From the NCBI RefSeq assembly GCF_028290105.1, contig NZ_JAQGKL010000088.1, forward strand, positions 1 to 49,019: a stretch of DNA of 49,019 nucleotides. The letters run 5' to 3'. The stretch comes from Methylobacterium sp. Lineage in GTDB: Bacteria > Pseudomonadota > Alphaproteobacteria > Rhizobiales > Beijerinckiaceae. The notes beneath the pieces were generated by a model, which was not told the origin of the DNA, did no database searches, and saw only the letters and a program-made list of their open reading frames with translations. Shown in pieces: positions 24,356 to 28,156 of the stretch (within the stretch, counting starts at the first letter, position 1; the number at the start of each line of letters is the position of its first letter). Both the position numbers and the translations under genes were made by a program.

Positions 24356-25066
24356 GTGTCGCTGCTCGAGCAATCTGCCGTTCGCAACCGCTTGCTCAAG
24401 CGTCTTTCGCCAGGCGACTTCGGATTGCTTCAGCCTCACTTGCGGCCGCTCGCCACTGAACTGCGCCAGGGCTTGATTCAGCCGCACGTGCCGATCACGG
24501 AGCTGTTCTTTCCCGAAACCGGCTACGCCTCGATCACCACGGCCGGATCGGGAAAGGTCGAAATCGGGATCATCGGCTCCGAGGGCGTCGTGGGCGCGAC
24601 CCCCATCCTGCTGGGGAGCGACCGGACGCCCTACGATCATTTCGTCCAGAGCGCGGGCGAGATGATTGCCATCACCGCGTCCGAACTGACGGCGGCGACG
24701 GAATCCAGCCCGACGTTACGCCGATTGCTGCTGCGCTTCGTCCAGACCCTGCTGATCCAGACGGCCCAGACCGCGTTTGCCAATGCGAGCTATAACATCG
24801 AGGTTCGCCTCGCGCGTTGGCTGCTGATGTGCCAGGACCGGATCCATGGTGACGAGCTCACCGTGACCCACGACTTCCTGTCGTTCATGCTGGGCGTGCA
24901 GCGCACGACCGTGACCCTGGCGCTCCAGATGCTGGAGGGTAACCGTCTCATCAAGGCCCGGCGCGGCCGGATCGCGGTGCTCGACCGGGCCGGATTGCTG
25001 GCCGTGGCGGGGGACAGCTACGGTATTCCGGAAGGCGAATACGCCCGGCTCATCGAAGGCGCCTGA
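24356..25066 (+). CDS. Crp/Fnr-family transcriptional regulator
   Basis: A 236-residue regulator starting at a GTG preceded by GAAGGGACAAGG. The N-terminal cNMP-like domain (ELFFPETGYASITT, KVEIGIIGSEGVVGATPILLG) is followed by a dimer helix (LLRFVQTLLIQTAQTAFANA) and an HTH (THDFLSFMLGVQRTTVTLAL, QMLEGNRLIKARRG). IGSEGVVGA and the HTH are typical of the soluble one-component Crp group common in Methylobacterium and Bradyrhizobium. It lacks FNR cysteines. The ligand is unknown. Confidence 0.88.
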   Translation: MSLLEQSAVRNRLLKRLSPGDFGLLQPHLRPLATELRQGLIQPHVPITELFFPETGYASITTAGSGKVEIGIIGSEGVVGATPILLGSDRTPYDHFVQSAGEMIAITASELTAATESSPTLRRLLLRFVQTLLIQTAQTAFANASYNIEVRLARWLLMCQDRIHGDELTVTHDFLSFMLGVQRTTVTLALQMLEGNRLIKARRGRIAVLDRAGLLAVAGDSYGIPEGEYARLIEGA

Positions 25067-25515
25067 CGAAGCCTACCAGGAACCGCCGCGCTGCCGCAGG
25101 TCTGTGGATTGCGGGGATAACCTGCCTCGCGCCGGAACAGTCCTGTGCTTGACGACCTCACGATTTCGTGATCGCGACTGATCCGGTCGAACGTTCGTGT
25201 TGCCGGTGGCTGCGCGTCTGAACTCATCGCCGTCCGATCAGTTGACGAGACACGCATCATGCGTTCCTCCCGAGACTCGGCCCGCCCGGCACAGCGCCGC
25301 GGCGGGCTCTTTGTTGTGCGCGTCCAGGTTCTGCCGGCGTAAAAGACTTCGGTCCGTGTGCGTTATAGCCAAGTTTGGTACGAAACCGCGCAAATTCGGA
25401 CCGGATTTCCTACCATTAACCTGTGTTGATGCAGGCGCGTTCTTAGTTTTGCACAACTCTAGGGCATTCCAGGGAGCGTGCCTTTGCCGCTTCCGCTCGC
25501 CTGAGAAGATACTGA
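25067..25515. other. Intergenic region before the sigma factor gene
   Basis: 449 bp with no supported protein gene. It holds a strong hairpin with a T-rich tail at 25279-25308 that is not close to the end of any annotated gene. No perfect GGAAC-N16/17-CGTT autoregulatory promoter was found for the sigma gene. Confidence 0.6.
25279..25308 (+). terminator. Orphan hairpin terminator
   Basis: Outer stem GGCCCGCC (25279-25286) with GGCGGGCT (25301-25308), and an inner stem CGGC-ACAGC-GCCG, followed by CTTTGTTG. It lies 212 bp after the preceding gene's stop, so it may end a small RNA rather than that mRNA. Confidence 0.5.
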
Positions 25516-26262
25516 ATGACTTCGCAATCAGCATCTCACGCTCCGTCTCATGCCATGATCGACGGGGCGCCGCCGCTCCCGCCCGCGATCAGACGAACTC
25601 TCGGACGGCATCTGCGCGAGACCTACGCGTTTCTCGAGGAGGAGCGGCCCGACCGCTTCGCCGTCCTCCTCGCCCGCCTGGAAGCCGTGCTGGCGGCCCG
25701 CGGCGAGTCCCTCACGGCGGAGGTGCGCCAGGGTCTTCAGGACCATGCGCCGGGCTTGCGCAAATATGCGCTCTCGCTGACCCGCGACGCAGCCCGCGCC
25801 GACGACCTCGTGCAGGATACGATGCTGCGGGCCTGGATGTACCGCGAGAGCTTCACGCCCGGCACCAATGTCTGCGGCTGGCTCACCATCATCATGCGCA
25901 ACACGTTCTATTCGGGCCAGCGCAAGCGCGTCCACGAGGTCGAGGACACCGATGGCAGCTACGCGGCGCAACTCGTCACCCTGCCGGCCCAGGGCGGCGT
26001 CCTCGACCTGGAAGACGTGAACGCCGCCATCGGCCGGCTGTCGAGCACCCTGCGCCAGGCGCTGACCCTCGTCGCTATCGACAACATGACCTACGACGAG
26101 GCCGCCACCGTGATGGGCTGCAAGATCGGGACGGTGAAGAGTCGGGTCTGGCGGGCCCGCGAGAGCTTGGCCGCCCTCGTCGGCTATTCCGCCGACGAGA
26201 TCGGGCCGGACCGCCTCGCCAACTCGGTCCTGGGCGACGCCCGCCTGCGCTCCCGGGCCTGA
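25516..26262 (+). CDS. EcfG-like ECF sigma factor with NepR-like N-terminal segment
   Basis: A 248-residue protein. Residues about 24-58 (IRRTLGRHLRETYAFL then EEERPDRFAVLLARLEAV) have the pattern of NepR anti-sigma factors: two amphipathic helices around a PDRF turn. Residues about 71-137 are sigma region 2 (LRKYALSLTRDAARADDLVQ, GWLTIIMRNTFYSGQRKR), and about 168-222 region 4 (MTYDEAATVMGCKIGTVKSR), both close to EcfG. EcfG normally is held by a separate NepR and released by phosphorylated PhyR; here the anti-sigma-like part appears covalently attached. No separate nepR or phyR gene is in the window. It converges on mgtE with 8 bp between stops. The sigma call is firm; the NepR resemblance is by eye. 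Confidence 0.85.
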   Translation: MTSQSASHAPSHAMIDGAPPLPPAIRRTLGRHLRETYAFLEEERPDRFAVLLARLEAVLAARGESLTAEVRQGLQDHAPGLRKYALSLTRDAARADDLVQDTMLRAWMYRESFTPGTNVCGWLTIIMRNTFYSGQRKRVHEVEDTDGSYAAQLVTLPAQGGVLDLEDVNAAIGRLSSTLRQALTLVAIDNMTYDEAATVMGCKIGTVKSRVWRARESLAALVGYSADEIGPDRLANSVLGDARLRSRA

Positions 26263-26270
26263 GGCGGCCG

Positions 26271-27641
26271 CTACAGCAGCGTCCCGCGCAGGATCAGCAT
26301 CGCCACCGAGAAGTAGATGACGAGGCCCGTGACGTCGACGAGGGTCGCGACGAAAGGCGCCGAGGCGGTGGCCGGATCGAAGCCGAGGCGCTGCAGCAGG
26401 AACGGCAGCATCGACCCGGTGAGCGACCCGAAGGTGACGATGCCGACGAGGGCCGCTCCGACGGTGGCGGCCACCAGCATCCAGTGCTCGCCGTAATCGT
26501 ACAGCCCCGTCTTCTGCCAGACCACGATGCGCACGATCCCGATCGCGCCGAGGATCGTGCCGAGCACCAGCCCGGTGGGCAGTTCGCGGATCGCCACCCG
26601 CCACCAGTCGCGCAGGCGCACCTCGTGGAGCGCCAGCGCCCGGATCAGCAGCGAGGTCGCCTGGCTGCCCGAATTGCCCCCCGAACTCATGATCAGCGGG
26701 ATGAACAGGGTCAGCACGATGGCCTTCTCGAGTTCGCCCTCGAAGCCCTGCATCGCGGTCGCCGTCATCATCTCGCCGAGGAACAGGGCGCAGAGCCAGC
26801 CGGCCCGCTTCCGGATCATCGTGCCGAAGCTGATATCCATGTAGGGCTCGGGCAGGGCCTCCATGCCGCCGAAGCGCTGCACGTCCTGCGTCTGCTTCTC
26901 GATCATGGCGTCGATCATGTCGTCCACGGTGACGATGCCGATGAGATGGCCGACCGCGTCGATGACGGGGAGCGCCAGGAGGTCGTATTTCGAGATCAGC
27001 CGGGCCGCCTCCTCGCGGCTCGCGGTCGGCGAGACGGCGAGCGGGCGCCGGCCCGGGGCCACCGAAAGCACGTTGTCCCCCGGATTGCCCGAGATCAGCC
27101 GACGCAGCGGCACCGCCTTGGTGAGCGCCCGGGTGCGCGGGTCGAGCACGAAGATCGCGTAGATCGTCTCGCGGGTCTTCTCGACCTGGCGGACGTGGTC
27201 GAGGGTCTGCTGAATCGTCCAGTTGCCCGGTACGGCGACGAATTCGGTGGTCATCAGCGAGCCGACACTCTCCTCCCCGTAGGCGCTGAGCCGGTCCACG
27301 GCCCCGCGTGTTTCCGCGTCGAGGCGCGCGCGCAGGTCCGAGCGACCGGGCTCCTCGATCTCGCGAAAGACGTCGGTGATGCGGTCCGCCGACATGCCCG
27401 ACAGGAAGCTGGCGACGCGGTCGCGCGGCAGCATCTCGATGATGTCGGCGGCGCAGTCGAGTTCCGGCTGGTCGAGCACCTCGATCGCCCGCTCCTGCGG
27501 CAGCCCGAGCAGGATGGCGGCGGCGACCTCGGGGGCTTCCTCGTTCAGGGCCTCGACGATGTCGGGGGCCCGCTCGTCGGACAGGCGCGCGGCGAGGACG
27601 GCCGGATCGATGCCGGTCGGGAAGGGGGCGATCTCGTTCAT
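26271..27641 (-). CDS. mgtE: Magnesium transporter MgtE
   Basis: A 456-residue Mg2+ channel. The N-domain of superhelical repeats (about 1-130: LLGLPQERAIEVLDQ, EMLPRDRVASFLSGM) is followed by two CBS domains (about 135-260: SVGSLMTTEFVAVP, LLALPVIDAVGHLIGIVTVDDMI) and five membrane helices with SSGGNSGSQATSLL and PFVATLVDVTGLVIYF, the pore signature. Mg2+ binding between N and CBS domains gates the channel in known members. The ATG at 27641 has AGGTGAG upstream; the earlier open frame is not typical of the family. Confidence 0.95.
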   Translation of the reverse strand: MNEIAPFPTGIDPAVLAARLSDERAPDIVEALNEEAPEVAAAILLGLPQERAIEVLDQPELDCAADIIEMLPRDRVASFLSGMSADRITDVFREIEEPGRSDLRARLDAETRGAVDRLSAYGEESVGSLMTTEFVAVPGNWTIQQTLDHVRQVEKTRETIYAIFVLDPRTRALTKAVPLRRLISGNPGDNVLSVAPGRRPLAVSPTASREEAARLISKYDLLALPVIDAVGHLIGIVTVDDMIDAMIEKQTQDVQRFGGMEALPEPYMDISFGTMIRKRAGWLCALFLGEMMTATAMQGFEGELEKAIVLTLFIPLIMSSGGNSGSQATSLLIRALALHEVRLRDWWRVAIRELPTGLVLGTILGAIGIVRIVVWQKTGLYDYGEHWMLVAATVGAALVGIVTFGSLTGSMLPFLLQRLGFDPATASAPFVATLVDVTGLVIYFSVAMLILRGTLL

Positions 27642-28156
27642 GGGCTCACCTCGGCCTGGTGGCGCGATCCGGCCGTGTGCGAGCCGGTCCGGACCGGCCC
27701 CGGCCGGAGCCCAGGGGGCCTCAGCGTCGAAGGACGGGAGCGGAGACGGCCGCGAACGGCGCGGGCGATCGTTCGGGACTGTCGCTGGGCATGGGGTTCG
27801 TCGGTTGGGAGCCGGGACCGCGTGAGGGCAGGAACATGAGGGCATGAATCGGCCCGCACGCCGGCCCGGCGGCGCGTGAGTGCGCCTCGCGGCCCGCCCG
27901 CGTCAAGCCTGAAGCGCGGCTTCGGCGATGTGAAGCGCGGCCGGGCCGTCGACCCGGAAGCGGAGCGTGCCGGCGGAGCCCTTCCGAGTTCGAGCTCTCG
28001 GCACCATATGTCTGAAAAGACGCGGGTTTTCGGGCATGCCGCCTACGCCGGTCCCGCAGTCACCATGATCCTATGAGAAATATAAGTGTAGTGCCCACTT
28101 GTGTTGTGCCCAACACAACGGCATATCAGAGGCGTCGAGCACGAAGGAGTTCCCCC
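27642..28156. other. Intergenic region between mgtE and pqqA
   Basis: 515 bp holding the divergent promoters of mgtE and the first pqqA. No protein gene is supported. It has an 11-bp direct repeat TGAAGCGCGGC at 27910-27920 and 27931-27941 (21 bp apart) and the palindrome described separately at 28099-28118. The last 100 bp before pqqA are distinctly AT-richer than the rest. Confidence 0.65.
28099..28118. promoter_or_regulatory. Palindrome upstream of the first pqqA
   Basis: TTGTGTTG-TGCC-CAACACAA, a perfect 8-bp inverted repeat with a 4-bp centre, 38 bp before the pqqA start. Its size suits a dimeric regulator; no known operator is matched. Confidence 0.55.

Follow-up and report, generated by a model that had tools for sequence, protein, structure and literature searches.

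An EcfG-type sigma factor of Methylobacterium with a covalently joined NepR-derived segment

NepR is a small protein that normally switches EcfG-type general-stress sigma factors off. In the window, by which we mean the whole stretch of 49,019 nucleotides of Methylobacterium sp. DNA analyzed here, one gene appeared to hold both partners in a single chain, which raises the question of whether its N-terminal part derives from NepR and, if so, what that part does when joined to the sigma factor. A preliminary description of the locus had proposed an EcfG-type sigma factor fused to a NepR-like segment at residues 24–58, self-inhibited and opened by PhyR directly, or competing for PhyR and NepR of the main pathway. 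The features of the locus are as follows.

24356..25066, + strand: Crp/Fnr-type regulator (HTH_Crp_2), upstream neighbor, assigned by family match
25503..25508, + strand: Shine-Dalgarno-like GAGAAG, 7 bases 5' of the ATG, from reading the sequence
25516..26262, + strand: ecfG-type (ECF15) sigma gene, 248 aa, with a NepR-like extension at the N terminus (ORF, translation, Pfam)
25576..25698, + strand: NepR-derived segment, residues 21–61 or thereabouts (Pfam, hhalign, shuffles, conservation)
25582..25641, + strand: first helix of the predicted NepR-like hairpin, residues 23–42 (AlphaFold2)
25594–25686, + strand: Pfam NepR match, residues 27–57
25654..25698, + strand: second helix of the predicted NepR-like hairpin, residues 47–61 (AlphaFold2; alignment entropy)
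25720..25938, + strand: sigma region 2, residues 69–141 (Pfam Sigma70_r2 at 75–138; predicted helices)
26008..26181, + strand: sigma region 4, residues 165–222 (Pfam Sigma70_r4_2 at 167–218; predicted helices)
26271..27845, − strand: MgtE-type divalent cation transporter, convergent downstream neighbor, assigned by family match

The open reading frame (25516–26262, + strand) starts with ATG and runs for 248 codons with no internal stop. Its product has the region 2 plus region 4 architecture of ECF sigma factors, as seen in the predicted helices and in Pfam matches to both regions that score well over the cut-offs; the Pfam model PhyR_sigma2 also matches residues 75–123. For comparison across relatives, an alignment (A3) of 66 fused proteins below 90% identity was assembled from 138 distinct proteins initially counted as extended, the sources being part of the matches listed in 59 Methylobacterium genomes (99 further stretches) plus own and named loci. 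Two of the 138, L069 and L074, were later dropped, as a NepR motif was found neither upstream nor in the extra N-terminal frame. Kinship with EcfG/ECF15 could be read from the A3 profile, the best PDB match of which was 5uxx_A, the RpoE of B. quintana (235 bits, E 6.6e-69). The titles of 80 loci matched by tblastn were mainly alphaproteobacterial, with one titled Frankia, and those nearest to the window protein among the named loci were from Methylobacterium.

The Pfam NepR model (PF18557) matched the full-length protein with 21.1 bits (E 2.4e-4) and the N-terminal 76 residues alone with 23.0 bits (E 6.3e-5); a NepR profile match is therefore present at the expected place (residues 27–57) but stays below the gathering score of 25.7 in both cases. 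When the model was run over the organism's own genome at E ≤ 10, the window segment (E 3.9e-4) ranked 5 of 11 places. Taken alone the Pfam match is weak, because the same model at E ≤ 10 also matches 11 of 14 other genomes used as a control, with a score over the cut-off in 1. Searching the N-terminal 76 residues against PDB sequences with phmmer gave nothing relevant (best E 0.089), and at E ≤ 0.1 the Pfam model matched 32 of the 66 proteins in A3 (best E 4.5e-11).

Because the single-protein score fell short of the cut-off, a profile–profile comparison was built. NepR segments from separate genes were gathered by a motif pattern, fused extensions solely by their likeness to the window protein; from 59 distinct NepR segments, 22 for hhalign and 34 for the motif comparison were picked by hand for length and variety. 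Alignment of 29 fused segments with the 22 NepR segments gave a probability of 98.6 and an E value of 1.2e-15 over 34 columns. On a rerun the score was 60.7, a value reached by none of 200 column-shuffled NepR profiles (maximum 16.3); six segments taken from elsewhere in the fused proteins scored at most 13.2 against the NepR profile. On the strength of this E value and of both controls, the relationship is attributed to homology and not to chance, and at the profile level the NepR homology of the fused segment is statistically secure.

The NepR-like segment and the sigma regions lie in one stop-free frame, in the window and in 5 orthologues alike; the segment is not a separate small trans-acting protein. 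By its sequence, the gene product is an EcfG/ECF15-type sigma factor with a covalent NepR-derived segment. This part of the preliminary description holds on three counts, namely profile-level homology, the single open frame and the Pfam sigma regions, and the span of residues 24–58 was right to within a few residues of the predicted helices.

AlphaFold2 run on A3 returned a model with a mean pLDDT of 79.7 and a pTM of 0.46, with helices at residues 23–42, 47–61, and 68–89; over residues 21–60, taken in blocks, pLDDT was 89, 80, 72, and 93. The same hairpin (25–41 and 49–64) was obtained for an extended paralogue from the same genome, the C54 protein, using a 78-row alignment (pLDDT 80.2, pTM 0.47). 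Residues 21–61 are thus confidently predicted to form a two-helix hairpin, and residues 24–58 are not predicted to be disordered. Packing of the segment on the sigma domains, the other structural check set by the preliminary description, could on the other hand not be read from the models. Foldseek gave as best match 5uxx, the B. quintana sigma–NepR complex, and recognized the sigma regions one by one; with both sigma domains taken together, the rmsd to 5uxx was 13–17 Å. The comparison with PDB bears on the sigma domains and not on the extension, because in the solved complexes NepR is a separate chain. Given these distances and pTM values of 0.46 and 0.47, the models do not contain the NepR-bound arrangement. 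Covariation analysis (136 sequences, 33 effective) found no excess of extension–sigma pairs among the top pairs, the observed and expected counts being 12 versus 15.0 (a1–s2), 6 versus 11.7 (a1–s4), 7 versus 9.8 (a2–s2), and 6 versus 7.7 (a2–s4). With so few effective sequences, and with top pairs that lie mostly in variable tail columns, this signal is unusable either way.

Conservation of the extension follows the NepR framework. Across the 66 proteins of A3, which go down to 38% identity, L33 is invariant and each of L29, G30, Y37, L51, L55, and L59 is found in 90% or more; the corresponding positions are conserved in the genuine NepR segments compared as well. Mean entropy in the extension was 1.56 bits for helix 2, 2.07 for helix 1, 2.81 for the turn, and 2.79 for the N-terminal tail, with 2.76 for the linker and 1.15 and 1.09 for the two sigma regions. 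Nei–Gojobori dN/dS values from 6 orthologues were 0.47 for residues 1–20, 0.25 for 21–61, and 0.11 for 62–68; in the sigma parts they were 0.035 for 69–141, 0.068 for 142–164, and 0.041 for 165–222. The NepR-like part is therefore under moderate purifying selection, with a much weaker constraint than in the sigma regions, and a value of 0.25 is by itself no proof of a special role, because the C-terminal tail (223–248) has the same value.

This similarity to the tail, against 0.035–0.041 in the sigma regions, would suit a segment that is a structural relic, one that only stabilizes the start of sigma region 2 or affects folding or lifetime and has no regulatory role. The prediction points the same way, in that pLDDT is high in helix 2 whereas the model leaves the overall domain arrangement uncertain. 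Retention of the framework residues in so diverse a set of proteins argues against such a relic, which we regard as possible but rather unlikely.

The stretch between the two helices has fared differently from the helices themselves. All 59 distinct NepR segments that come from separate genes have the signature [VIL]P[DEQ] there, although the collecting pattern already demanded P[DEQ], so that only the hydrophobic residue before the proline is independent evidence; the two PDB NepRs aligned also carry VPD at this place. Among the fused proteins the signature is kept in the linker of 4 of 66 and absent from 62, a loss that also fits a structural relic. A looser form, P[DE]R[FLIM], is kept in 11 of 66, the window protein included, and the LGxxLxx(x)[YF] part in 63 of 66. 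The NepR scaffold has thus been kept while the inter-helix signature has mostly been lost. In the window protein the stretch reads ER-PDRF: PDRF is present, the hydrophobic residue before the proline is absent, and relative to the aligned NepR one residue is missing between the helices. With the helices conserved and the signature largely gone, an intramolecular role without PhyR recognition is predicted.

Proteins of this kind have been described in M. extorquens. The 2016 study PMC4814048 reports that EcfG proteins of the Methylobacteriaceae carry an N-terminal NepR-like extension and proposes an ancient nepR–ecfG fusion. In its two-hybrid assays NepR bound EcfG1 and EcfG5 only once the extension had been removed, and in vitro NepR bound truncated EcfG1 only. 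These results would fit an extension that covers the NepR site, and an effect of its removal on NepR binding is not what a mere relic would lead one to expect. Natural EcfG1 is reported there as two isoforms, the full-length protein and a form minus the first 14 residues; both can complement a sextuple mutant, and NepR is pulled down with each of them in vivo. Because the isoforms differ by those 14 residues only, both should keep the NepR-like part. EcfG1 is then functional in vivo with its extension on, which counts in favor of a relic; the same activity, along with the pull-down of NepR, means that a lid cannot be a full block in that protein.

The published truncation effects and the conservation of the extension, taken together, are most simply explained by a lid in cis over the NepR-binding surface, with tuned basal activity largely outside the NepR–PhyR switch; we give this reading about an even chance of being right. 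Adjacent nepR and ecfG genes would have fused, and the former anti-sigma factor would have become an N-terminal domain. The hairpin would fold back onto regions 2 and 4 and occupy the position at which free NepR binds, so that free NepR and, in part at least, core RNA polymerase would have to compete with this intramolecular lid. On putative EcfG-type promoters the protein would then show a tuned basal activity that is for the most part independent of the NepR–PhyR switch. By analogy with EcfG1 and EcfG5, self-inhibition by the extension is plausible.

Of the interpretation offered in the preliminary description, the joining of sigma factor and NepR-like segment stands, but direct opening by PhyR is unsupported, given the contrast in the [VIL]P[DEQ] signature between fused proteins and separate NepR segments (4 of 66 versus 59 of 59). 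Such opening would make the protein a single-chain partner switch, in which a cis-acting anti-sigma segment keeps the sigma factor off until phosphorylated PhyR pulls it away; if this were true, the loss of a stop codon would have turned a two-protein regulatory module into a single protein. The NepR homology of the segment is consistent with such a switch, the genome has a phyR gene divergent from the canonical nepR, and PDRF is retained in the window protein, the subclade of which may differ from most fused paralogues. PMC4814048 moreover infers PhyR control of the remaining EcfGs, notably EcfG2, by a mechanism that it does not identify. Against this, the window protein is one residue short between the helices and has no hydrophobic residue before the proline, where all 59 NepR segments have one, and the literature searched, with few subscription journals, gave no PhyR-binding test of the extension. 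We therefore consider a switch of this type improbable.

Alternatively, the extension could bind PhyR in trans as a decoy, titrating it and dampening the stress response. NepR homology would allow this, and there is a precedent in PMC4814048, where stand-alone NepR homologues of M. extorquens bind PhyR and no sigma factor, and titration is suggested. A decoy does not account for a segment that is still part of a sigma factor in 59 of 59 Methylobacterium genomes, and the inter-helix signature is mostly lost; in our view a decoy is very improbable.

Regulation of the gene itself was approached through promoter motifs. With the EcfG-type promoter spelling GGAAC-N16-18-CGTT, the window gave 3 matches, of which the closest lies some 4 kb upstream of the gene, and 10 of 100 shuffles gave as many. 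The looser GGAAC-N15-18-GTT was not found in the 3-kb stretches that surround the gene (L005, L012, L029); two copies of it lie on opposite strands in the nepR1–phyR intergenic region of the same genome (L001 1778–1802 and 1811–1835). PMC4814048 gives the motif as GAAC-N16,17-C/GGTT. As no EcfG-type promoter was found upstream, the window gene is probably not autoregulated, as reported in that study for the M. extorquens copies.

The gene is one of several of its kind in its genome (G000; 4.16 Mb in 316 contigs, the window being contig C193). At least 5 extended EcfGs are present, on C193, C54, C288, C74, and C260, the last of which ends at the contig end, along with an EcfG fragment with its start missing (C166) and a distant EcfG-like protein with no extension (C101). 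The canonical nepR, divergent from phyR, is on C310, and an unfused nepR–ecfG pair with a 4-base overlap is on C293 (loci L002/L015/L260). Such an unfused pair also occurs, beside fused paralogues, in six other Methylobacterium genomes read (L251–L256), and the NepR segment was found in 6 of these 6 loci. Small solitary NepR-like frames were seen at L006, L008, and L010 (contigs C127, C263, and C115), and a solitary frame that resembles an EcfG extension with no sigma domain lies about 1 kb downstream of the C54 ecfG (L258 3561–3887, + strand); for the small frames of L010 and L258 no Pfam NepR match at E ≤ 0.1 was found.

In each of the 59 Methylobacterium genomes, own genome included, the top match of the window protein begins no later than query residue 20. 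Orthologues at 88–89% identity were, among the matches listed, present in 5 of the 58 other genomes sampled (G001, G040, G048, G055, and G057); more distant relatives reached 62% over the matched part in G047 and 58% in G058, and A3 rows outside the protein's own orthologue group are at most 57% identical to it. The mgtE neighbor (95–97% identical) is beside all 5 orthologues and the Crp/Fnr-type neighbor (83–86%) beside 4, with a partial 55% match only at the fifth. The C54 gene is by comparison a widely shared copy in the genus, with a sigma part 99% identical to that of a relative. On this pattern of relatives, the window gene is a lineage-specific EcfG paralogue of Methylobacterium, distinct from the genus-wide copy. 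According to PMC4814048, only EcfG1 among the EcfG proteins is conserved in all Methylobacterium considered; because C54 is so widely distributed, its protein is likely the counterpart of M. extorquens EcfG1.

Fusions of this kind have thus already been published (PMC4814048), and the window gene is a new paralogue among them. Like the window protein, EcfG1–EcfG6 of M. extorquens AM1 in that report bear a NepR-like extension of about 55 residues on an ECF15 sigma factor; there as here, several paralogues are present per genome, the genes lie away from the phyR locus, and an EcfG-type promoter upstream was not found. The same paper counts more EcfG proteins in Methylobacterium than in the other Alphaproteobacteria sequenced by then. 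The window gene differs from the genus-wide copy in being lineage-specific. The RpoE–NepR complex of Bartonella quintana (5uxx) has the same sigma family and the same two-helix NepR core, but in two chains instead of one, whereas the window inter-helix signature is shortened and altered. The sigma-like domain of PhyR (3t0y, 2lfw, 4qic) shares with the window protein a sigma-like fold of the kind bound by NepR, as the PhyR_sigma2 match reflects; unlike PhyR, the window protein has no receiver domain and holds its NepR part in cis. In ECF36 and ECF243 (PMC8999054) a former anti-sigma part is likewise joined to a sigma factor, but those extensions are membrane-bound, whereas the one described here is a short soluble NepR segment. 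New here are the distribution of the fusions across family, order, and class, the in-frame single-stop intermediates, and the lost linker signature.

To follow this distribution, a junction profile (A4; residues about 19–106, 34 rows) was run on order, class, and family samples. In the order sample 16 of 249 genomes matched; 5 are Methylobacterium, all stop-free, and the other 11, from 5 other genera, hold one or more stops inside. In the class sample 3 of 385 genomes matched, with a stop-free junction solely in Methylobacterium, and the third match covered positions 52–89, the sigma part only. In the family sample 46 of 298 genomes, from 5 of 43 genera, matched: 25 in Methylobacterium, 17 in g32, 2 in g36, and 1 each in g27 and g17. 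One g36 genome is fused and the other has a TAG, g27 has a TAG, and g17 is fused; one of several Methylobacterium rows (G945:C3) also holds a TAG in the junction. Stop-free fusions were thus seen in 4 of the 43 sampled family genera, and rarer or more divergent ones may escape, because the samples are subsets, the thresholds were 1e-15 to 1e-18, and candidates were scored in part. PMC4814048 reports the NepR-like extension as confined to Methylobacteriaceae. The g17 junction (G947:C9:9305–9565) was seen in one genome, the other g17 genome listed (G074) having no match; transfer or misassignment is possible there. Matches by tblastn in Mesorhizobium, Aminobacter, and others (about residues 20–240) had been taken up as candidate fusions and were rejected, as the frames show separate nepR and ecfG genes.

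Unfused loci indicate how the fusion could have arisen. The NepR motif lies within 600 bases upstream of ecfG in 50 of 65 unfused loci, a set with many near-copies (Bradyrhizobium, Mesorhizobium) in which the 15 loci with no motif include contig-truncated cases. In 46 of the 50 the two genes overlap by 1–4 bases or have a gap of no more than 10 bases, and 15 of the 50 have both genes in one frame. At L246 (1396–2319, + strand) a single TAG is all that separates nepR from ecfG in their common frame, and L245, from the same genus, is fused. For the two genes to fuse, it would be enough that a stop was lost or, where nepR and ecfG overlap, that a small frameshift occurred, and pairs with a single in-frame stop show a path from a two-gene anti-sigma/sigma pair to one protein.

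Sigma-domain trees did not reject a single origin of all fused forms (p-AU 0.571) or of the genus alone (p-AU 0.656), and Methylobacterium plus g32 formed one side of a branch (SH-aLRT 89). On this tree, with 2 changes, the g36 fusion may be separate. A one-origin reading is tentative, because the program warns of long branches meeting. For the trees, 24 of 62 unfused rows were excluded as near-copies, as were L049 and L072, and the one-clade tests were run with the long-branch or truncated rows own_C166, own_C101, own_C74, L234, L236, and L066 taken out. A first tree that included such rows had 3 changes, one of them owed to the truncated own_C166.

A second kind of NepR fusion was noted in the same genome. 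On contig C154 (8105–8764; L004 1093–1752, − strand), one frame holds IGQALAAFYDDLIAEGVPEHLATLV, a NepR-like segment that the Pfam NepR model matches below its cut-off (E 3.6e-4, 20.5 bits), followed by a receiver domain (Pfam Response_reg E 5.3e-10). Matches spanning both parts (query ≤ 47 to ≥ 214) were obtained in 35 of 41 Methylobacterium genomes, one with a TAA inside; the NepR-like segment is present in 6 of 6 such loci read (L274–L279), and the Pfam NepR match of the L275 protein falls short of E 0.001. The main text of PMC4814048 nowhere uses the word "receiver". Judged by its domains, the protein could be a phosphorylation-controlled NepR, and this fusion, found in most Methylobacterium genomes sampled, may add another node to the stress network.
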